From positions 1-64,000 of the forward strand of contig JABCPU010000145.1 in assembly GCA_016800925.1 (NCBI GenBank): a stretch of 64,000 nucleotides of DNA, in the 5' to 3' direction. A model generated the notes under the pieces. It saw only the letters and a program-made list of their open reading frames with translations. It had not been told where the DNA came from and did no database searches. The position numbers were made by a program, and so were the translations under genes. Source of the stretch: Suillus spraguei (taxonomy: Eukaryota > Basidiomycota > Agaricomycetes > Boletales > Suillaceae). Positions 4,726-49,934 of this stretch are shown here, in pieces (position 1 is the first letter of the stretch; each line of letters opens with the position of its first letter).

Positions 4726-5538
4726 TTAAAAATCCTCAACAATCCGCCTCACAGTTTCTTTGTCTCCTTCTTCGTCTTTGACTTCAGCTTGTTGGAGCGG
4801 AGTCTTCTTCTTTCTGTCAGGACAATTATGAATGCAGTGTCCTGTCTTCTTGCATCTGAAGCATTGTCCCTTCTTCATGCATTCGGATCTCTCCATATCG
4901 GAGATTCGATCTATGACCATTGCATTGGAGTCACGATTAGGGATGTAACATGCGCTCCCGTAGTTCTTCTTCTTCTGTTGTGGAACATGACGTGTCCTCA
5001 TGGCTTGAAGACGATGATGGGAATTGTCAATGGAAACACATTGCAGCACAATGTCTCGGAATACTTCTGAGACATCTCCTAGTGCGAAAAGCTTTGTAAG
5101 GATACCCCAATTCAGGCCATCTTGGAAGAATTGGATCTTCATTGCATTGTCGGTGATATGAGCCTTGGCTGCAAGTGCCTCAAAGTCAGCGATGTAAGTA
5201 TGGAGATCTCCACTTCCTTGTTTGAGGTCCCTGAGTTTCATGAGTGCGGTTCCCTTGGTATCCACTGGGTCGAAGGCTTCTTTGAAACTTTTCATAAAAT
5301 CCACCATTGTCCCATAACCAACTTTTTGTCCAGAGGTGTCGGTTGATTGAGCATGGTCAAGAAATTGCTTTTTCCAGGATTTAGCATTCTTCTCGGTCAT
5401 AAAGGATGTTATGAAAATGATCTTCTGCTTGTTGGTGGTGTAAAGCTTTTCGTTGATGTCGATTGCAAGACTGGAGAAATTTGTGAGAATTGTCGCGATC
5501 TCCATCAAAACCGGTTGGTTGACCAATTTTGTATTCAA
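4726..5538 (-). CDS. Retrotransposon Gag with CCHC zinc knuckle
   Basis: A 270-residue open frame. The middle carries a retrotransposon-gag type region (VGYGTMVDFMKSFKEAF, then MKLRDLKQGSGDLHTYIADF). Near the C-terminus is a nucleic-acid-binding zinc knuckle, CFRCKKTGHCIHNC, which fits CX2CX4HX4C. In the living element Gag forms the particle and binds the RNA genome. Length and order match Ty3-type elements. The ATG at 5538 is the first in the frame after the LTR leader, though a slightly earlier start is possible. The frame is intact, but the element is truncated downstream and cannot be autonomous. Confidence 0.75.
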   Translation of the reverse strand: MNTKLVNQPVLMEIATILTNFSSLAIDINEKLYTTNKQKIIFITSFMTEKNAKSWKKQFLDHAQSTDTSGQKVGYGTMVDFMKSFKEAFDPVDTKGTALMKLRDLKQGSGDLHTYIADFEALAAKAHITDNAMKIQFFQDGLNWGILTKLFALGDVSEVFRDIVLQCVSIDNSHHRLQAMRTRHVPQQKKKNYGSACYIPNRDSNAMVIDRISDMERSECMKKGQCFRCKKTGHCIHNCPDRKKKTPLQQAEVKDEEGDKETVRRIVEDF

Positions 5539-5682
5539 ATTCTTTGGTCGTCATATTTGGCGATTCGTCTGGTGAGTTATACTTTCTCGGTGCCTACACG
5601 CACTGTCTTGCTGTCCGTTAGGGCTTATCGGGGTTCAGGGTCGAAGACTGGATAGTCGATGATCAAGTAGACTTTAATCTTT

Positions 5683-19844: not shown

Positions 19845-21313
19845 TCATGCTCCTCGGCCATTTAGTCTTTTTCCTTTGCCCTTTGCAACCAGTCCTGCGC
19901 ACCAGACATCAGCTGCATACAACATTTTAGGAATTACTACTCCCTCGTATAATCTCTTCATTAGACGGCTCTTGATTCCCTTTGTTGGGCGGATCATTCT
20001 GTTGCAGGCCAGCGCATATTTAGTTCCCTTTGCAAGTGTGTAGGCCATGTGTTCCTTGAAACTTAGGTTCTCGTCAATGATTACTCCTAGAAACTTGTGG
20101 AAACTTGAAGATTGTATTGTATGGTTGTGGATGGTGATGGCGGGTTTCGGGACCAGAATGGACTTGTTCAGGTTCATTTTGCTCGGGATTCTAGCTCTGG
20201 ATAGGCATACTAATGCTGTCTTGTCTAGCTCAAATTATGTGTGTTCTTCACTCCATTGGAGTGCGCCTCCTCTCTTCTCCATCATCTTGACTAACTTAGC
20301 GTGCACTTCTTTGTATTATTTGCCCTTTGCTATGAGTGCAATGTCATCAATGAAACCAAGACTAAGTTTGCCCTTTCGGGGTCTTGGATCTGCAACTCTT
20401 AGTAAGTCCGTGTTGTAGAGGATGAAGGCTAACAGGACAAGGGACATCCTTGGTCTACTCCTCCCTCGACATTGAATAGGTCCAATTGAAAGTTGTCAAA
20501 GTTCAGGGTTGTGGATCTTCCATCGAGCCATCGTTTGTACCATTTGATGTAGTCGTTCGGTATGCCTGCTTTTCTCAGATTGTGTAATAATTTGCTGATT
20601 ACCATGCTGGGAAAGGCAGCTTTAACATCTAGGAACAACATGGACACGAAGCTTTCTTGGGATGCCCAGGAATCTGTAACAAATTTTGTTAGTAAGTGCA
20701 GGGAGTCTGTAGTGGAACGACCTGGTCTTCTGCAAAAGTGTGTTGCTGCTAAGAGATTGTGCTGTTCTGCGATGTAGATCAGGTTGTTGGCTATGCAGGA
20801 GGATAAGATTCTGGTCATTGTGTCAAGGAGCATTATGGGTCTGTATGCCTTTGGTAGGCTGTAGTCTGGTCTTCCTGGTTTGTGGAGCACTATGGTAGAC
20901 AGTTTCTTCCACTGTTCAGGGTAGATTCCAAGTGTGAATGTCACTCGGAATATCGGGCCCATATATGGGATGAGTTGTTCTGCACAGTGGGTGAAGACGC
21001 AGTTGCTGATTCCATTTGGGCCTGGGGCCTTGTGTGGGGACAATTTTGATATTGCTCTTGCTATCTGTTCGTTTGTGATTAGTGAGAATTCGCATATGGG
21101 AGGAGGATAGATATAATTAGGATTAATGTGGTCATCTAACAGGGGAGGCTTGAAGAAAACATTGTAGAGTAATTCACTTTTTCTGTTGTTGTCCTGGGTC
21201 GTGTTGGGGTTGTTGGCAGCTGGGTCTTTGAGGGTGGTGATTCTTGCATATATTTGGTCGTTTGGATTACTTGCTGCATAGCTGTGGAAGTTCCATACCC
21301 CGGATGGGGTCAT
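19845..21313 (-). pseudogene. LINE reverse transcriptase domain
   Basis: The frame 21313-20429 has ISKLSPHKAPGPNGISN, STIVLHKPGRPDYSLPKAYR, MLFLDVKAAFPSM (catalytic Asp in FLDVKAAF) and VEGGVDQGCPLSC. A frameshift then moves to another frame giving LGFIDDIALIAK near 20340, the FIDD version of the catalytic YxDD box. After that, the frame 20177-19845 reads FLGVIIDENLSFKEHM. All palm motifs are recognisable, but the frame is broken at least twice. Confidence 0.8.
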
Positions 21314-21462
21314 ATTTTCTAGCCAGTCGCTCCAGTGGGATTCCTTCGCCTTTTGATGTTTTCAGAGAAAGTGTTGCATGCTCTTCAGTAGCTTTCGTGT
21401 ATGGGATCATCTCTGTATGGTAGATTAGCTCTTGATTTGCGGCCTAATTTGTGTACCTCCTT

Positions 21463-26639: not shown

Positions 26640-28665
26640 TATCATTCTGAAGTTGAGTCTGATTGTGCAAGCGGAAACAATGAAACAAAATAGTGATATT
26701 ACGTTACATATAATAGGGAATCCTGTGACAAAAACACAGCCTGATACACGAAAGGGAGAGCACTGGTGGCAAATACCATTCATACTTTGCCCTTGACTCC
26801 AGCGACCTGGACGTCTTGCTAATGCAGGAGTTCGAGCGTTGCCTATCGTGGCCCATTTTAAGAGTTGAAACGGAAGCCGGAGCTGTGGTTAAAAAACGCC
26901 AATCAATTACATAGATACAATAGCCACATCGATTACTATCATACAAAGTAATCGACGTGGCTATCCAAATCTTAAAATCAATACCGATTATGCAGCGTAG
27001 CCAAAAAGTTGCCCGGATTCGATACCAGAGGTCGACAAGCACCTAGCCAGGTTTGACGTCCATGGATATAGATAAATATTCGAACGACCACTTCTAACAT
27101 GCATGATCTCTCACTTTCAGCTTACCATACTTCTTCATACACAGTCAAGATGTCATTGTTGAGAGCGGAATGACCGGTGAATGCTGGAGTTCGAACATAG
27201 GCTGGAAGAAACGTGCGGAGTGAGGAGGGAGTGAGAAAGCTGTCAAATACTCGTCAGAAGCGCCAACGTAGTCTTTATGTATAAGGAACATACACAACAG
27301 ATAGCGCTAATTGCAAACCTGTACACTCTATCTACACAGGAATGAAGCTGTGAGCGAACAGGATGGAACGTACCTTGAAACAAACAAGTGCTCAACTTCC
27401 TCAGGCCTCAACTCTCAACCAGATACCTCTCGTGATTGCGCTCTGTGCCCGCCTGAAAGGTGCTTCCAGTGAGCAATACTCTAAGCTGTTCTGCAGGTTG
27501 AAGCTGACGACTTACTTACCAGTAATTTCGAATATTCATAAAGATCTCTCGCGCATTCTCGCAGCTGCATTCATTGTCCATCTTGTGGATGGGGATTGAA
27601 TCCTGTAAGCACGTCGTCCCACGAACCATGGCTTGTGTGATTCTGACAAGCACCAAAGAAGGTAGGCGCTGAACTCACCAACAAACTGTGCCACTGCCGA
27701 ATAACCTGGTCTGATTCCAAGATCCCAACGGACTTCTCGCATAGACGATCCGCCATAGTTGAACACGCATGTCTTCCTCCAGCAGTAAGATGCCAGCGAT
27801 CACGCCATGCCAGACGATGCGAGGTCATACCCACCAGGTACAAGGTGTTGTGTACTTGCTTGACGGACAACACATCATCACATGTTCGGTGGACGGCTCA
27901 CTCCGACTATGGAACCTAAAGAGCGGGAAACAGATGAGCGAGGACTGGCGGGACGGGGATGGCGGAGAGTGGTCCATGACATTATCTCCAAATGGAAAGA
28001 TAATTGCAAGTGGAAGCGCAGATATCGGTTACAAAGTTAAGTTGTGGGACGTCAAGACGAGGAAGGTCATTGCCACTTGGACAGGACACAGCGATGTCAT
28101 ATGTGCATTGTGCTGGCGTGGAGATGGTGAACGAGTAGCGAGTGGATCCTGGGACGGGACAGCGAGAGTCTGGGATGTCAAGAGCAGCAAAAATATACTG
28201 ACAATCAAAACCGGTCATGATTGGGTGCGAGTGATGATGTACTCGCCTGACTCATCAAAACTTGCAACAGGCGGACATGGAGACAACGCTGGGATGCAAA
28301 AAGGGGCAAGCTTCTCAAAACACTCGATCACGATAATATTGTTTACAGCTTGGCATGGACATCAGACGGACACAAGCTTATCTCCAGTTCATATCGTCTG
28401 ATTAGGATATTCAGCACTGACACCTGGCAGCAAATCGCCTTCCTTGAAGGTCACACCCATCTTGTCACCGGCATCTCCTTGTCTCAGAACAACCGCTTTC
28501 TTGCAAGTGTATCATGGGATAATACAGTGTGTATATGGAATCTGGAAACCAACCTCCCAATTGGACCACCCTTCCAGCACGAACAGGATTTGCGCTCTGC
28601 AGCCCTTTCCCCTGATGGAAAGGTGTTAGTCACTAGCTGCAAAAATGGAAACGCATACACATGAG
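26640..28665. repeat. Duplicated segment, copy 1 (divergent gene plus WD40)
   Basis: The segment 26640-28665 is collinear with 32815-34700 at high identity, including non-coding parts. The upstream half is present a third time at 31980-32805. The three were made by local duplication, with the middle copy lacking the WD40 half. Confidence 0.85.
26690..27756 (-). pseudogene. Unknown divergent gene, copy 1
   Basis: A start at 27756 gives MADRLCEKSVGILESDQVIR then QWHSLL, a GTGAGT intron, an exon with KMDNECSCENAREIF ending MNIRNYW before GTAAGT, and further exons. One of these reads VGASDEYLTAFS and ELQHSPVIP in a frame disturbed by a one-base change. The ATG lies 12 bp from the start of the WD40 gene on the other strand, so the two share a promoter region. 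The same exon signals recur in the copies ending at 32798 and 33924. The family is unknown to me. The frame of later exons is broken. Confidence 0.4.
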
Positions 28666-33924: not shown

Positions 33925-33936
33925 AGTTGAACGTGC

Positions 33937-35483
33937 ATGTCTTCCTCCAGCAGTAAGATGCCAGCGATCATGCCATGCCAGACGATGCGAGGACATACCA
34001 ACTGGGTAAAAGGTGTTGTGCACTTGCTTGACGGAAAACACATCATCACAAGTTCGGTGGATGGCTCACTCCGACTATGGAACCTAAAGAGCGGGAAACA
34101 GATAGGCGAGGACTGGCGGGACGGGAATGGCGAAGTGTGGTCCATGGCATTATCTCCAAATGGAAAGATAATTGCAAGTGGAAGCGGAGGCAGCAATAAC
34201 AAAATTAAGTTGTGGAACGTTGAGACGAGGAAGGTCATTGCCACTTGGACAGGGCACAACAATGTCGTGTGTGCATTGTGCTGGAGTGGAGATGGTGAAC
34301 GAGTAGCGAGTGGATCCTGGGATGGGATAGCGAGAGTCTGGGATGTCAACAACAGCAAAAATATACTGACAATCAAGACCAAGCACAATTGGATCTATGC
34401 GGTGATATACTCGCCTGATTCAGCAAATCTTGCAACAAGCGGAAATGGAAACAACGCTGTAACAATCTGGGATGCAAAAACGGGCGAGCTTCTCACCGGC
34501 ATCTCCTTGTCTCAGAACAACCGCCTCCTTGCAAGTGCATCATCATATGATCAAACAGCGCGTCTATGGAATCTGGATACCAACCTCCCAATTGGGCCAC
34601 CCTTCCAGCACAAACAGGATTTGCTCTCTGCAGCCCTTTCCCCTGATGGAAAGTTGTTAGTCACTGGCTGCGAAAACAACAACGCATACACATGGGACGT
34701 TCACGCCATTCTCAAAAAAGCAGGTCTTGAGGACCTCCTCTTGCCTATTCTTGATGTAATTTTCATGGTTTTTCATTAAAAACTATGCTAATATCCCCCT
34801 CGCAGGTCCCAACTCTAAAGCCGATGATGTGTGTACGTGACGTATTCCTTAATCTTTTCAACCACCTCAAGGTTGTCACTCTAGAGTAATGCAACGCAAC
34901 TTCCACCTATTCAAGCCCGTCAAATACCGCAGAGCTTTTTTGACGGTGTGCAAGTCAGTCGTCTGCACTTTGAACCACTTCATGTCCTGATTTCTATACT
35001 TTCAGTCCCCTGCATCGCGCAGCACTCGTTCTTCTTCGCAACACCTTCACAGTACCTGGGCACCCCTTTTCGAACGCTTTTCGTCGCTCTTCAACCACTC
35101 TCGTTCCGATACCGATGGAGTAATTGAACTCCAACAACGTCCAAGGCGACCCATCTTCTCTCACCGCGGTCCTCGCATTGTCGAAGTTCCCGTTCCCACA
35201 GTACAAGACAGAAGTGTATGTATTTCTTCTTATGCATTTCGTGTTGCTGTGGTTTAATAATTTCCGTTAGGCTTTGTATGTTGCTCGGCCAAGACAGAAA
35301 GCACGGCAGCATGCCCAATCTCAAGGCCATGGATCATCCACGACACCGCCTGCTCCAGGTCCTAACACTACCACACCAGGTGCAAGACCTGCGAATTCAC
35401 GACTCGTACAATTGTTGGCTCATCTCGTACTCTTTCTCTGCTGCGCATCCCCTCAACATGCCGGTGGCAATGCACAGCAGTGA
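33937..35483 (+). CDS. WD40-repeat protein with Ser/Pro-rich tail, copy 2
   Basis: Exon 1 (33937-34755) is open and encodes MSSSSSKMPAIMPCQTMRGH and six WD blades ending NAYTWDVHAILKKAGLED. Relative to copy 1, about 150 bp covering one blade is deleted in frame between the short words CTTCTCA and CTTGTCA, so a seven-blade ring is probably reduced to six. A small exon near 34806-34828 has unresolved phase. Then come exon 35006-35215 (SPASRSTRSSSQHLHS, FERFSSLFNHSRSDTDG, IVEVPVPTVQDRS) and exon 35271-35483 (ALYVARPRQKARQHAQSQ, ending LVLFLCCASPQHAGGNAQQ). The end is a short hydrophobic Cys-Cys segment. Function is unknown; it is likely a scaffold. Confidence 0.65.
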
Positions 35484-41733: not shown

Positions 41734-44700
41734 TCAAGAGAATCGTTGGAAACACACCTCTGCAAGTTTACGGCCTGCGGACAAAATAGTGAGACAGGAC
41801 TGCAGATCCTTCAAACACCACTGCCTTTCGAGCCAAGAGATGAGAGAATGATTCCAGAAAGCCTTGAATGTGTGGGTAAGGCTCTCAGGCCATGGGACTG
41901 GGGTGTGCGAGAGATGAACGGCCCAGTTTTGACATGCGTATTTAAGAGCTTCGGAAGTTGAACGACTTCGTTTCCATGCTTCGTAGGCAAAACTCAAAAA
42001 AGCCATCATCGCATGGATGATCTCCATATCCAGGGGGACACGATCCTGTATTATTGCAGAGGTGGAATGATCCGGGTTCCTTAACGCCAGGAACACCGGA
42101 AACATCAAGAAATCCGGCAAATTTTTGAACTGGTGGACTAATTGCAAAGCTGATTGCGAAGGCGATGCTGCAATGACGCCATACTCTCTGGTTGCTTTCA
42201 ATGTGCTCGAGAATTCTTCCATTGTCACCCAGACAGTCGTCAACCGCCATGCCTTACCATGGAATGTTTGCAGCCAGTCTTGCCCCTCCCGGGTCCGCAG
42301 CCAGTCTCGCCCCTCCTGGTTCCGCAGCCAGTTTCGCCCGCCCTGGGTCTGCAACCAGACTTGTCCGCCTGAGTCCTGAAGCCAGTTTCGACCACCCATG
42401 GACTGTAGCCAACCCGTGGACTGCAGCAATTCATCCCCCCTCTGATACTGCAGCCACTCCCGCCCACCAAGGGTCTGTAGCCAGTGCCATCCGTCCTGAT
42501 TCTGCCACAGCCAATCCATCCTCCACCCCCCTCCCGGTCCATCTTGCCTGCCCGAGGCCGGTGGCCAGTCCACCTCCATTTGGGGCCGTATGAAGCCCGA
42601 CTTCTGCAGCCGCAGCTTGTCCGGCCACTTATCTTCATATGGATCCTCATCCTCGATTTGCGGCGAGGCTCTTCCGCCCTGGGTCCACAGCCAGTTTCTT
42701 CCGCCCCAGGTCCCCCCCAGCCAGCCTCTTCCGCCCTGGGTCTGCAGCCAATCTCCTCCGTCCTGGGTCTGCAGCCAGTCTCTTCCGGCCTGGGTCTGCA
42801 GCCAGTCTCTTCCGGCCTGGGTCTGCAGCCAGTCTCTTCCGGCCTGGGTCTGCAGCCAGTCTCTTCCGGCCTGGGTCTGCAGCCAGTCTTCTCCGCCCTG
42901 GGTCTGCAGCCAGTCTCTTCCGGCCTGGGTCTGCAGCCAGTCTCTTCCGGCCTGGGTCTGCAGCCAGTCTCTTCCGGCCTGGGTCTGCAGCCAGTCTCTT
43001 CCGGCCTGGGTCTGCAGCCAGTCTTCTCCGCCCTGGGTCTGCAGCCAGTCTCTTCCGGCCTGGGTCTGCAGCCAGTCTCTTCCGGCCTGGGTCCACACCC
43101 ATCCTCTTCCGCCCTGAGTCCGTAGCCAGTCTCTTCCGCCCTGGGTCTGCAACCAGTTATTTCCATGCTGTGTTAGCAACCAGTCTTTCGCTCCGTCTGT
43201 CTGCAGCCAAGCACGCCCATCTTGGGTCTCCAGCCAGAAATTTAATTCCGAATCACGATGGCCCCGAAGCCACAAGAGGGTGATAAGCACCTGCAGTGGT
43301 TCAGGTGGCTGGACGGTGAAAGCTAATGCATGTTTCAGATCTTGGGGGTCATAGGATTTCATAGCTTGACTGTGCTTGTTCAATTCTGAGAGTGCGTCGA
43401 AGAGGGCTGTGCTTCCTGGAATCTCGCGCCGTATCAAGCGGAGAGAGGAAAGTGCAAGTAGGGAGTGCGGTGATATGATATGTTTTACTTGAGGGAGGCT
43501 GCAGTTGGAGGGGTGGGAAACATAGTCACGGACGGATGAGTGATAGATATTCACAGGGAGACTGTGGTCGGTGGGAACATCTATGACAGACCGCAGTTGC
43601 ACCAGCACTCTTTCAACGTCCCTGCCCTCACCAGGACCCAGAAGTTCCGAAATTTGTGACATAGGTAGAGGATCTGAAAGGGCAGCAACAACGGACAAGT
43701 GCAGGTATGCCTGCGTCGGGTCAGCACACGTAGAGAGAATTCGGTCGTATAACTTGTACACCTCTGTTCCTGGAAGCAAGTCACTTGCTAGTCCGAGCAT
43801 GAGCTCAAGCCGTTCGTAGGGATCACTGTGTCGATCATCGATAAACTTCATCATCGTAGACGCCACAATGAAACGTCTCCCTGCTCGGTTCGCTAGCCGC
43901 TCGAGTTGAACCTTCGTTGGCTGCGGGAAAGTGGGAAAGCGACTTCGCAGTTTTCTAAAGGAATGTTGCAAGAAAACATAGATGTCTTCATCGACGTCCG
44001 CGCCGTCTAGTGAGATGGTGGTAGCAACGCCATGTCCAGAAATCTTCACTGGTATCTCACACACGAGCGGGTGCACATCTTCGTGCTGCATGGCTTCATG
44101 AATATGAGCTTCCGAGCGGCTTGTGACTAAAATGTGAGTCACGGGCAGATCAGGATCTCGAAGTGCTTGGGCAAGTAAGGAAATGAGTTCAGCAAGTTCG
44201 ATTTCGGATTTGTTTTCATCAAAGGGTTCGATTGTGGATTGATCAAGGGATTCTGGTGCGGATTGATCGAAGGATTCTGTGCATTCATCAAGGGCATCGA
44301 TAACGAACGCCAAAGGCGGACAGCCACACAGTCTGGATTTGAGCTGCCGCAGAGGTCTGGAAAACAACGCCTCCATCTGTTTGCGAAGAGATCCATCGGG
44401 GTGCAGAAGGGCAGGGTTCTCGAGGATCGCTTTATTCACGTGTGTCCTGACGCTGGGGAAATTACTGGCCAACTGGTAGGCAAGCGTCGCAAAGAGAAGA
44501 CCAGTTGTACGCCGATTTGTGTGCTTGCGGGAGAAAAAGAATGTTCCTGCGAGCCGCATCTCCACACTCGTCTCCTCTGTCACTTTCAGACCTCTCATCC
44601 TTTCGGCCACAGTAAACGCAACAGCAGACTTTCCGACGCCCGCTGTGCCATGGAGCCAAATGAGTCGACTCTTCGATCTGTCATCTAGTACTCCGTAGAT

Positions 44701-44823
44701 GAACTTGAGGAGGTCCACTCGGGTCCCTTCCAAGCATTTTGGATGGGGCAAACGTTCACGAGAGTCATGTTCAGCGCCCTTGACAGTGACCTGGGCCAAC
44801 TTCTCCCAAGTGCCTTCGGACAT
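41734..44823 (-). CDS. NACHT-type STAND NTPase with C-terminal WLQTQAGRD repeats, 1029 aa
   Basis: A single open exon. Residues about 28-45 (HPKCLEGTRVDLLKFIYG) lead into a NACHT NTPase with Walker A GTAGVGKS (59-66), a sensor-like FFFSRKHTNRRT and Walker B LAFVIDALDE (171-180). Behind Walker B lies an acidic insert of three 8-residue units (SFDQSAPE, SLDQSTIE, PFDENKSE). A helical region follows to about 528. From about 530 to 850 there are roughly 30 copies of a 9-residue WLQTQAGRD unit, 20 of them regular, then a 170-residue helical end. No N-terminal effector domain is seen. Fungal proteins of this type are thought to oligomerise on ligand sensing, with the repeats as sensor; here the ligand is unknown. 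The frame is intact. The start at 44823 is the first ATG; an upstream exon cannot be excluded. Confidence 0.88.
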   Translation of the reverse strand: MSEGTWEKLAQVTVKGAEHDSRERLPHPKCLEGTRVDLLKFIYGVLDDRSKSRLIWLHGTAGVGKSAVAFTVAERMRGLKVTEETSVEMRLAGTFFFSRKHTNRRTTGLLFATLAYQLASNFPSVRTHVNKAILENPALLHPDGSLRKQMEALFSRPLRQLKSRLCGCPPLAFVIDALDECTESFDQSAPESLDQSTIEPFDENKSEIELAELISLLAQALRDPDLPVTHILVTSRSEAHIHEAMQHEDVHPLVCEIPVKISGHGVATTISLDGADVDEDIYVFLQHSFRKLRSRFPTFPQPTKVQLERLANRAGRRFIVASTMMKFIDDRHSDPYERLELMLGLASDLLPGTEVYKLYDRILSTCADPTQAYLHLSVVAALSDPLPMSQISELLGPGEGRDVERVLVQLRSVIDVPTDHSLPVNIYHSSVRDYVSHPSNCSLPQVKHIISPHSLLALSSLRLIRREIPGSTALFDALSELNKHSQAMKSYDPQDLKHALAFTVQPPEPLQVLITLLWLRGHRDSELNFWLETQDGRAWLQTDGAKDWLLTQHGNNWLQTQGGRDWLRTQGGRGWVWTQAGRDWLQTQAGRDWLQTQGGEDWLQTQAGRDWLQTQAGRDWLQTQAGRDWLQTQAGRDWLQTQGGEDWLQTQAGRDWLQTQAGRDWLQTQAGRDWLQTQAGRDWLQTQDGGDWLQTQGGRGWLGGTWGGRNWLWTQGGRASPQIEDEDPYEDKWPDKLRLQKSGFIRPQMEVDWPPASGRQDGPGGGWRMDWLWQNQDGWHWLQTLGGREWLQYQRGDELLQSTGWLQSMGGRNWLQDSGGQVWLQTQGGRNWLRNQEGRDWLRTREGQDWLQTFHGKAWRLTTVWVTMEEFSSTLKATREYGVIAASPSQSALQLVHQFKNLPDFLMFPVFLALRNPDHSTSAIIQDRVPLDMEIIHAMMAFLSFAYEAWKRSRSTSEALKYACQNWAVHLSHTPVPWPESLTHTFKAFWNHSLISWLERQWCLKDLQSCLTILSAGRKLAEVCFQRFS
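42250..43240 (-). repeat. 27-bp coding minisatellite in the STAND gene
   Basis: The unit GGCCTGGGTCTGCAGCCAGT plus 7 bp (CTCTTCC) repeats with near identity from about 42720 to 43095 and with drift on both sides. Twenty-one units are regular in the protein, then a diverged spacer (about 42540-42660) and nine degenerate units. Because 27 is a multiple of three and units lack stops, other frames are also open here. Confidence 0.92.
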
Positions 44824-45403: not shown

Positions 45404-48400
45404 ATGATAAGATCTGAGATTTCCAAGGAAGATGCGTTGCACGTGTGGTTTTCGTCGTGCATCACATCGTTTTTGTCGTGCACCTGGACGGTATCGTTAT
45501 CACTCCTGTCGTCGTCGTCGTCTATCGTATCGTTCTGTGTCGTTCTCGTTGCGCATCATATCGTTTTCGTTGGCATTGTCCCAATGCAAGGGTAAGCTCA
45601 TACATTTTACAAGTTACTTGATTAACTGTAGTGTTCTTCACAGTGACGGAGTAAACCAACTGCCGGCAAGTAGACGTCGGCTTCAAGCCCACCGCGCTCT
45701 CATAAAAAGCGGGTCTGGTAAAGTAGAAAGTTCGCGGGTCGGACGGAGAAAGGGTGCTCGTCCACCAGTCGAGGTATATAAGCTCAATTTTTGTGATCGT
45801 TGTATTTTACTGACTTTGTATATAGTCTGCACCGTATCCTGGACCAGATGCAGCTCAGGACCAGCTTGATGGGCAAGTCGAGTTTCCAGATGATCCTCTC
45901 GAGGATGTTGATCATCATGACTATGAGCTTGGGGACTTGGACCACCACGAGACCCAATCCACTGGACATACACCCCTACCCGATGAACCCAATACACCCC
46001 CGCCCAATGAACCCAATACACCTCCACCTGATGAACCTAATACACCCCCACCCGACGAACCCAATACACCTCCACCTGATGAACCTAATACACCCCCGCC
46101 CGATGAACCCAATACACCTCCACCTGACGAACCCAATACACCCCCACCTGATGAACCCCAGCATCTCCCTCGGCCCCTCCACCACATTTTTAATATCAAT
46201 CAGCTTGAGGAGGAGGCTGCCTTGCCGAAGCAGACAGATGCTGTAGCTTTCATCAAGTTACTGCGGGTAGCATCTCTGGATGATCCTGTGGCAAAATTGG
46301 ATGATGCCGCGCTGAACCGGTTGCGTAATCCGTACCAGACCAGTCTCGAAATTGACAGTAGTGCTGTCCGACACGCGATTGCAACATACTTTGCATTAGA
46401 ACACTCGGCAATCAACGCATATGAGTCTATTCGACAATCCGCTATGCGCTGCCTTGAAGGCGAGGCTACTCAGATCCCTAGTTACTATAATGTCGAGCGA
46501 CTTATTGCGGAGTACACTGGTGTTGAATCAATCGAACATGATATGTGTCCAGATACCTGTGTCGCATTCATGGGTCCCTTTGCCAATCTCACACATTGTC
46601 CTATCTGCAATACAGAACGCTATGACCCTATCAAACTTCGTACCAGTGGTGGCCGAATGCATGTAGCACGCCAGAAGTTTGTCACTATTCCCCTCGGTGC
46701 TCAACTCCAAGCACTATGGCGTGACCGAGACCAAGCCCAAGCAATGGCCTATCTGCGGGAAGGAACTCAATCCTTGTTCGAAACACTTCGAGCCAATGGT
46801 GGTGTCATTGATGTTTTCGACGACTTTTTCAAGGGCCGTGAATTTTTACAGGCTGTTCAACGGGGTGATATTAAGCCTGATGATATTGTTCTGACGACCC
46901 CCCTCGATGGCGCGCAGCTGTATGAGAGCAAATTATCAGATTGTTGGATCTACATCTGGGTCATTATGAACCATGCTCCCGACCGGCGATACAAGAAAAA
47001 ATATGTCCTTCCTGGAGGTTTCATTCCAGGACCCAACAAGCCAAAGAATGTCGACTCTTTCCTATTTCCCGGTATGCACCACCTAGCTGCCTTGCAAAAC
47101 GAAGGTCTTCGCATCTGGAATGCATGGCGTGACATTGTGTTCATTTCCAACCCGTTTCTGATCTTCGTTACTGCGGACGGACCTGGGCTGGTGTATTTCG
47201 ATGGTATGGTGGGACACAGCGGAAAGAGTGGCTGTCGATTGTACTGTGGGTTACTCGGTCGTCGGAAAGGAACACATTACTACCCTGCGTTGCTAATCCC
47301 CCATCATTATGCTATCGCTGGCAGCAACCACCCTGATGTCAGTGTCTATGAGTTGCATGATCCTGACCTCACCGAATATTTCGACAACCTATTGAAACTT
47401 GTTGCTGCACCAAACACCCGCCAGTATCGCAAGCTGCGAACTGACACAGGAATCACAAAACCTTTGCTTTTACTCGGCTTACACCCATCATGCACCCTTG
47501 GAATTCCGAACTGTCTTACTCCCGATATCATGCATCTCGCACAACTACTCTCCGACCTCTTGTTGTCGTTATGGCATGGTACAATGGACCACACCTTTCC
47601 AGATCATGTCTCAATGTGGCCCTGGGCAATCTTTCGTGATGCTGAGACCTGGGAAACCCACGGAGAGGCTGTTTCTACTGCAGCGCAGCACCTCCCAGGT
47701 TCATTCGACCGCAAACCAAGAAATCCTGCCGAAAAAATTAGCTCAGGTTACAAAACCTGGGAGTATCAAGTCTACATATTCGGTCTCGGCCCTGCGCTAC
47801 TATACAACATCCTTCCCCGACCATATTGGTTAAACTACTGCAAGCTTGTTCGTGGATTTCAATTAATTAACCAGCACTCTATCAGCCGCGAAAATGCTCG
47901 TATTGCTCAAGTGTTATTCACTCAGTGGGAACTTGACTTTGAGACGCTCTACTATCAGCGCCGTGCTGAGCGTCTACATTTCATTTGACCCTGCGTACAC
48001 CAAGTCAGCCACCTCGTACGTGAGACTGTCAAGAAAGGGCCACCCATCTGCTATTCTCAATGGACCATGGAACGTACTATTGGAAATCTTGGGCAAGAAA
48101 TTCGCCAACCTTCCAATCCATATGCCAACTTGTCACGTGAGGGCGTCCGACGGTGCCAAGTTAATGCTCTAAAAGCCATGATGCCTGATCTCTCCCCTGA
48201 CAAGCCCCCCTTTCCAACAACAGCTGTTGATCTTGGAGACGGATATATTCTCTTGCATAAGCGAGATCCACGGTCAATGGTTCCTCGAGAACCAGGTGTC
48301 CAAGCAATTTTCCAGTATCTTGGTCCCCAGCGTCATGGCATCAAAATTCGCCGGTGGGCCCGTCTACGTCTTCCAAATGGACAGATAGCACGCACTGCAT

Positions 48401-48984: not shown

Positions 48985-49934
48985 TCATTCATTATCAAAC
49001 AATGCCTGCAGCTCTCGCTTCCGCTGACGCACAACTGAAAAGCTATCATCAACACCCGCACGGTCATACCACTTTGAGTCTTCTTCACGTGTGACGTATT
49101 TCCAGTAAATTGAATCTGGAGGAGGGGGACTTGGAGTAGCAAAGAACGAGCGTGGATCGAGCCGTTCGAGACGTGGTGGTATAGTGGTGCTTCCTGGAGT
49201 TGATGTGGCTGCTGGACTGTTTTCATCAGATTCCGGTTCAGTTGTTGAGCCTGAATCCGCGCACGGCCCTGAGGTAACTTGAAGAGGCACAATCTCTGTG
49301 TCAGATTCGGGCTCCGTAATCGAGCCAGTGCTGTCCGCGATTGGGGTCTTCGCTGGTGTGGTAGCCTGCACAGTGACATCTTCAGATTCGGGCTCCGTAA
49401 TCGAGCCAGCGCTGTCCGCGATTGGGGTCTTCGCTGGTGTGGTAGCCTGCACAATGATATCTTCAGATTCAGGCTCTGTGACCGAGCCAGCGCTGTCTGC
49501 GATTGGGGTCTTCACTGGTGTGGTAGCCTGCACATCTTCGACAAAACTTTGATGTAAGATTAGACAGTGTTACAAAGTTATTGAACGGAATAGAGAAAAA
49601 AAGCCTACAGGTCTGCAACCCAATTGTGGTTCTGTGTGCCCGGGTCAGACTCTAAAATGGGCAGTAGAGTAGAAATCTGTTGTATCAAATAACGAAATCG
49701 AGGAGGATGTTGAATCCAGTATGCGGGATCGAGAAGCATGTTATCAGATGCTGTCAAATAGGGACTGCTACTGCTCTCCGTTACGCTTGGATCACTGAGG
49801 ACAACATTGTCAAAGTCAATATCACAATTCATCTGCAAAAAGCGCAATAAAGGTAGGCTCATGGTGGTACTGGAGTAGACACTGATGTTGTACTTTGCAT
49901 ATTTTTCATTGAAGTCCAGATATGTTTTGCTCAC
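48985..49934 (-). CDS. Transposon accessory gene 1: acidic protein with 27-residue repeats
   Basis: Two exons. The first (49934 or 49860 down to 49617) contains LLRFLQMNCDIDFDNVVLSD and WIQHPPRFRYLIQQIS. A GT-AG intron (about 49616-49549) leads to the second, beginning FVEDVQATTPVKTPIADS. Three tandem 27-residue units carry the core TPIADSAGSVTEPESED (81-bp DNA repeat). The end has YWKYVTREEDSKWYDRAG and RKRELQALFDNE. No family is recognised. It is convergent with the transposase (64 bp apart) and lies wholly inside the element, so it may help transposition or be carried as cargo. Frame intact. Confidence 0.6.

Follow-up and report, generated by a model that had tools for sequence, protein, structure and literature searches.

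The DNA analysed here (the window) comprises the first 64,000 nucleotides of contig JABCPU010000145.1 of Suillus spraguei (GCA_016800925.1) and contains, on the minus strand, an uninterrupted open reading frame (ORF) of 1029 codons plus stop (41734..44823). The encoded protein consists of a NACHT/NPHP3-type NTPase of the STAND (signal transduction ATPases with numerous domains) class, a W-anchored array of nine-residue units (hereinafter WL units) and a C-terminal cap. An earlier note on this DNA, made from the letters alone, claimed that this array, encoded by a 27-bp minisatellite, takes the place of the sensor repeats of known fungal proteins resembling NOD-like receptors (NLRs).

The protein, all coordinates being on the minus strand, starts with a short leader (MSEGTWEKL..., residues 1-45, 44689..44823), delimited by a Pfam scan and comparison with relatives. 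The NPHP3_N/NACHT NTPase follows (residues 46-248, 44080..44688), recognized by Pfam (PF24883, E 1.5e-22; PF05729, E 3.9e-11) and by fold matches. Its motifs, which the note had called intact, are the Walker A sequence GTAGVGKS at residues 59-66 (44626..44649) and the Walker B-like sequence AFVIDALDE at residues 172-180 (44284..44310). Thus, the region displays what defines the NTPase of STAND proteins and NLRs, namely a NACHT or NB-ARC domain with both Walker motifs. In an AlphaFold2 model of the full protein, built with 56 alignment rows (residue numbers in the model are one lower than in the protein), the NTPase resembles STAND and ORC-type ATPases; the fold-match rows to STAND proteins end at model residue 341-359, and rows to ORC/Cdc6-type proteins reach 427-456, with root mean square deviations of 8.6-14.8. 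Between the NTPase and the array lies an arm (residues 249-529, 43237..44079) that is conserved in alignment A1 and predicted to be mostly helical, the helices falling within model residues 276-518; it may correspond to the winged-helix or helical arm of STAND proteins.

The array spans residues 530-858 (42250-43236), inside the single ORF and in the place that the earlier note had given it. Block 1, with about 20 units and a homogenized centre, covers residues 530-712 (42688..43236) and is delimited by the repeats, with one helix per unit predicted by AlphaFold2; a degenerate in-frame stretch of about 68 residues (713-780, 42484..42687), mostly of low model confidence, separates it from block 2, which by unit counts holds 8 diverged units (residues 781-858, 42250..42483). 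The C-terminal helical cap with the stop codon (residues 859-1029, 41734..42249), predicted by AlphaFold2, is of near-constant length in relatives. No match to WD40, ankyrin or TPR was found by Pfam in the 1029-aa protein up to E 10; by this measure the repeat is, as had been stated, none of these.

At the DNA level, Tandem Repeats Finder independently detects a period of 27, with 18.0 copies at 42669-43157 and a further 3.3 at 42270-42358. A rule based on W spacing counts 29 units, two of them atypical, close to the thirty or so given in the earlier note; WLQTQAGRD itself is present nine times. Alignment of 28 units of the two blocks at the DNA level bears out another part of the same description, an array centre that is almost identical with both edges diverged. 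There is also a slight excess of identity at a lag of five units (0.977 vs 0.937-0.953), and the array has the appearance of a recent-looking amplification burst.

The frame is a single one of 1029 codons, intact as the note had it, but its openness is weak evidence of coding by itself because two of the five other frames hold only one stop across 42250-43240; other-frame ORFs of 151-308 aa overlap the array region. The substitutions between units are more informative. In the array frame, the proportion of synonymous differences between units exceeds that of nonsynonymous differences (0.448 vs 0.239; 28 units, including a shifted one at residue 701), whereas among the five other frames a synonymous excess is seen in one (0.375 vs 0.264), to a small extent in another (0.303 vs 0.279), and not in the remaining three. 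Furthermore, we placed each unit's own base changes at random in 2000 trials, using the 18 unique ones among 27 units, with the shifted unit excluded. Compared with the null means, there were fewer amino acid changes from the consensus (45 vs 62.8), fewer stops (0 vs 7.4) and fewer changes at W1, L2, T4 and G7 (6 vs 22.3), and none of the 2000 trials was as low as the observed value on any of the three measures. This null treats units related by duplication as separate, so they are not fully independent in the test. The substitutions between the units of the window gene show coding constraint beyond chance.

The window gene appears to belong to a large multigene family, judging by the predicted proteins that match it. 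A search with the whole protein against a database clustered at 90% identity, in which the 7994 candidates sharing the most words were scored, yielded 267 homologues at E<=1e-3, of which the best 120 were taken. Among these 120, query coverage reaches up to 99-100%, and none of the records is identical to the window protein; 69 are from named organisms, 62 from Suillus and 7 from Rhizopogon, with no other genus represented and with up to ten entries from S. placidus. The closest N-terminal half among 57 proteins compared, that of P0077 from Suillus clintonianus, is 85% identical. A query composed of the repeats of P0010 alone (7997 candidates scored, 94 proteins found) established that other NACHT proteins carry the repeat, so that one of the conditions under which the note would have given up its view does not apply: 92 of the 94 match the N-terminal half of the window protein, 78 of the hits from before the P-loop and the rest from further down, some in the arm alone. 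The two proteins without such a match are P0123 and P0125. The former is a metagenomic protein in which WD40 repeats precede dozens of WL units and NACHT is not matched; the latter is unrelated apart from its repeat. The domain order of P0123 suggests that the array can join other domains. Two predicted proteins, P0002 and P0121, contain two NACHT copies head to tail, which suggests tandem gene copies fused by annotation.

Across the family, the protein-level consensus of the unit is W-L-x-[TS]-x-x-G-x-x, with positions 3, 5, 6, 8 and 9 variable. Under a strict definition that fixes W1, 2878 units were collected from 121 of 125 proteins (P0125 left out), with L2 in 96%, T4 in 79% and G7 in 88%; under a relaxed definition that also accepts F and Y as the first residue, W still accounts for 95% of 2596 units. 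The spacing is exactly nine in 2665 of the 3177 successive W-L pairs that are at most 20 residues apart. In the 107 proteins with at least eight units, position 4 is T, S, D or N in 2502 of 2817 units, and 354 of 445 prolines lie at position 5. A capping residue followed by proline at N1 is a typical helix start, and the unit, with T or S at position 4 and prolines concentrated at position 5, fits this pattern.

In two relatives, P0102 and P0113, long nine-residue repeats of the LAADPG or VAGDTERE type represent the same kind of 27-bp minisatellite read in another frame; these are either annotation errors or frame-shift-tolerant arrays. An ORF on the minus strand of the window (42647-43102) is comparable to them.

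The length of the array varies widely among the predicted relatives. With bounds drawn by phmmer, which replaced a regular expression that caught 24 arrays, the array was bounded on both sides in 78 of 126 proteins and measures 109-737 aa (quartiles 240, 318 and 430), whereas the cap, where bounded (76 of 126), remains at 152-162 aa (5-95% range). All six pairs with N-part identity of at least 90%, which could be allelic or paralogous, differ in array length, by 9, 70, 89, 121, 163 and 305 aa. Two units from one protein are 13 times as likely to be identical as two from different proteins, with the within-protein rate above the between-protein level in 62 of 107 proteins, and the window gene has the highest rate of all 107 (0.114). 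The local homogenization that had been read from its DNA is therefore supported, but the window gene, being the most homogenized, is not typical of the family. The high internal similarity of repeats that characterizes HNWD-type genes is accordingly clear in the window gene and weak in the family overall, which, judging by identical-unit rates and mean unit distances, seems to consist mostly of diverse units with bursts of local amplification.

The predicted fold of the array is helical where the models are confident. In the full-protein model, each unit contributes one helix of 6-7 residues, formed by positions 5-9 together with the next W and L, and the predicted local distance difference test score (pLDDT) falls along block 1 from about 84 to 67. 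A model of the array alone, built with 36 alignment rows, has helices at pLDDT 84-91 over model residues 21-120. The models thus gave one helix per unit in the confident parts and a low-confidence, strand-like remainder; on balance, one short helix per unit appears to be the likelier arrangement. A fold search of PDB and BFVD with the array model returned no match at E<=0.001, which does not prove a new fold. The best viral match (BFVD) was an uncharacterized protein of Bodo saltans virus (E 0.0077), so giant viruses may carry WL-like arrays. A sequence search of solved structures gave RTX-type matches at E 0.0014 or weaker, the others being weaker still.

The WL unit also occurs outside NACHT proteins. 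The view that had been put forward, in which a nine-residue Trp repeat takes the sensor position of a STAND/NACHT protein, is supported and extends to many relatives, but the unit is not unique to this architecture. A generic WL query of 1800 residues (4115 candidates scored, 146 hits, best 120 taken) detected, among the matches listed, a subtilase from a bacterial metagenome-assembled genome (P0126), two HECT proteins (P0127 and P0128) in each of which some 25 loosely defined WL units precede the HECT domain, P0129, and four Bifidobacterium leucine-rich repeat/InlB-repeat proteins (P0130-P0133) whose arrays, close to the C terminus, comprise about 20 units. These arrays share the tandem consensus of the fungal family, retaining T/S4 and G7, but are combined with other partner domains and lack NACHT; the likeness may reflect common descent or convergence. 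Prolines lie at position 5 in 31 of 34 cases in P0126, 50 of 60 in the Bifidobacterium proteins and 7 of 9 in P0129; the HECT proteins have three prolines in all. In P0126, P0127, P0129, P0131, P0158 and P0185, no best Pfam stretch was listed on the array, and there was no match to PF00353.

A genome scan with P0126 found at least 12 loci, one of which is the protein's own record; seven of the 11 others listed match the subtilase part, and L006, L007, L008 and L014 match the array or the region just before it at 24-27% identity. Phage matches to P0127, the window array and P0129 are all below 27% identity, and scans of viral contigs with A4 and P0129 found no relative. The match in a Bordetella phage lies in a different frame from bbp36, and the frame of bbp36 itself contains another short repeat.

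Building on the coding constraint, the architecture, the family and the variable array length among predicted relatives, we consider the probable product of the gene to be an NLR-type receptor, belonging to the Suillus/Rhizopogon lineage, in which a NACHT STAND switch is combined with a WL solenoid as a new, fast-changing sensor. On this reading, the protein would be an NLR by its switch and new by its sensor. The fold, ligand sensing and the recognition role of the array are what we infer here. In the proposed mechanism, the NACHT STAND NTPase would be the switch and the solenoid of nine-residue units the sensor, each unit probably forming one short helix that is capped by T/S4 and comprises positions 5-9 plus the W and L of the next unit. 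The scaffold would consist of W, L, T and G and the variable reading surface of positions 3, 5, 6, 8 and 9, and the C-terminal helical cap would close the array. By analogy with other STAND proteins, the receptor would leave its closed ADP form when a ligand binds the solenoid, allowing ATP exchange, assembly and signalling; because no N-terminal effector was found, the signal probably passes through a separate partner. The 27-bp minisatellite would permit gain, loss and homogenization of units, as in genes of the HET-D/HET-E type.

Several observations weigh against this interpretation. No N-terminal effector domain was found in the Pfam scan of the ORF, to which an upstream exon could possibly be added. 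Among 124 relatives, 103 have a recognizable P-loop, preceded by a median of 66 aa; in only eight of these 103 does it follow more than 100 aa, and the stretches common to these eight are just 11-22 aa. The relatives are predicted gene models, some of them truncated, and in five of the six close pairs one N-part is just 283-406 aa. Homogenization is not general, given that 45 of 107 proteins do not exceed the between-protein level of identical units and that units within an array differ on average at 4.13 of nine positions, little fewer than the 4.45 between arrays (77 of 107 proteins are below). The confidence of the structural models is moderate and uneven: the full-length models average a pLDDT of 72.6 for the best and 69.1 to 55.0 for the others, with a predicted template modelling score of 0.50, and the five array-only models average 70.6 to 37.9, four of them 38-55, with confidence confined to approximately residues 20-130 and strand-like structure at pLDDT below 50 beyond residue 146. 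Finally, the array passes the Pfam cut-off for the RTX family PF00353 (E 2e-19, 69.6 bits vs 23), and 33 of the best 120 homologues carry this label in precomputed annotation.

The array might instead be a fast-expanding minisatellite in a tolerant gene, serving as a linker or spacer of variable length and taking no part in sensing. The nearly uniform centre in the window gene, the widely differing array lengths and the other-frame reading of part of the minisatellite in P0102 and P0113 would fit such a spacer, but the constraint on W, L, T and G in the window and across the family, the regular spacing of W-L pairs and the near-constant length of the cap after the array make it unlikely. A different possibility is that the protein is NLR-like but functions in development or symbiosis signalling rather than in non-self recognition; the partner bound by the WL solenoid would then be endogenous and fixed. 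NLR and repeat-protein genes have been listed among those that change in mycorrhiza formation, with Suillus named, in a review (PMC10197012); in a term search of the Suillus study cited there, the main text names WD40 but neither NACHT nor NLR (PMC5065116). The difference in array length in all six closest pairs and the variation at five of the nine positions are unlike a fixed partner surface, and we regard this function as improbable too.

The third alternative takes the automatic PF00353 label at face value and sees in the array a calcium-binding beta-roll of the RTX kind, joined to a NACHT protein. RTX repeats share with WL units the nine-residue period and, in phase, the G-x-D-x-L pattern; P0001 passes PF00353 with 142 bits, the generic WL query also matches many true RTX proteins, and the array-only model turns strand-like in its last third, albeit at low confidence. 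In addition, a designed beta-roll is reported to employ stacked tryptophan pairs (PMC2174480), so that Trp alone does not exclude an RTX-like fold. However, the label is missing from 87 of the best 120 homologues; of eight relatives scanned, P0002, P0004 and P0010 score below the cut-off, and P0113, P0116, P0117 and P0102 have no match, some of these having few units. The scores of NCBIfam RTX-type models are far under their cut-offs (52.8 vs 1000, 53.4 vs 625 and 30.3 vs 2000), and the six WL-array proteins scanned from outside the family go without a PF00353 match. Not one of 2865 family units has the defining GGxGxD calcium turn, which is also missing from the remainder of the family proteins scanned, whereas it occurs 24-61 times in each of five RTX proteins compared; in WL units, the places of the two turn glycines are taken for the most part by T/S and by Q, P or E. 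We therefore reject RTX membership despite the passing profile score and, with proline at position 5 fitting a helix start and the confident parts of the models helical, consider a calcium-binding beta-roll highly unlikely.

Among known systems, the receptor that we favour is most readily likened, by sequence alone, to HET-E and HET-D of Podospora (HNWD proteins), which also combine a NACHT switch with C-terminal, near-identical tandem units whose number differs between relatives. The WD40 unit of HNWD proteins is 42 residues or 126 bp long (PMC12222747), whereas that of the window protein is nine residues or 27 bp with one Trp and does not match WD40; in addition, neither HET nor another N-terminal effector was found in the window protein. 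The sensors of fungal NLRs named in the sections consulted are ANK, TPR and WD40 (PMC4986451, PMC10197012); such proteins likewise join NACHT to C-terminal tandem repeats, but by Pfam the WL nonapeptide is none of these. In a third such paper, a term search of the main text for Suillus, Boletales, RTX and nonapeptide found none of the four (PMC9815663). In a literature search of titles and the beginnings of abstracts that covered few subscription papers, no description of the repeat or of the family was found.

Thus, in a lineage of ectomycorrhizal fungi, a much shorter repeat appears to have become the basis of a multigene NLR family; the libraries used label it as RTX (in our view, wrongly) or leave it unlabelled. 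To our knowledge, the WL unit would be unusually small for a helical solenoid if the predicted fold is right; in that case, the unit is easy to count and to make, so that the link between array sequence and recognition would be directly testable in pine-associated mushrooms. More tentatively, the WL nonapeptide might be an unrecognized class of helical solenoid, with one short helix per nine residues and thus a much smaller unit than ANK, TPR or LRR, that is present in bacteria, in other proteins and in fungi of the Suillus lineage, where it would serve as the modular sensor of a large NLR family and be shuffled in 27-bp steps, every unit displaying a few variable residues on a constant W-L-T-G framework; we regard this broader proposition as possible rather than probable.

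Elsewhere in the window, two similar WD40-repeat genes or fragments with MSSSSSKMPAI... starts lie about 6 kb apart on the plus strand (27763-28660 and 33931-34776); P0123 matches them with its WD40 part. Stretches of retrotransposon gag and reverse transcriptase on the minus strand (4729-5550 and 20432-21361) place the receptor gene in DNA with several mobile-element remains. An ORF of 683 aa with a Transposase_21 (tnp2) domain (45937-47988, plus strand; Pfam and ORF list) contains an N-terminal PPPDEPNT repeat encoded by a 24-bp minisatellite (8 copies, 45968-46158), and an 81-bp tandem repeat of 2.9 copies (49301-49534) overlaps minus-strand open frames.
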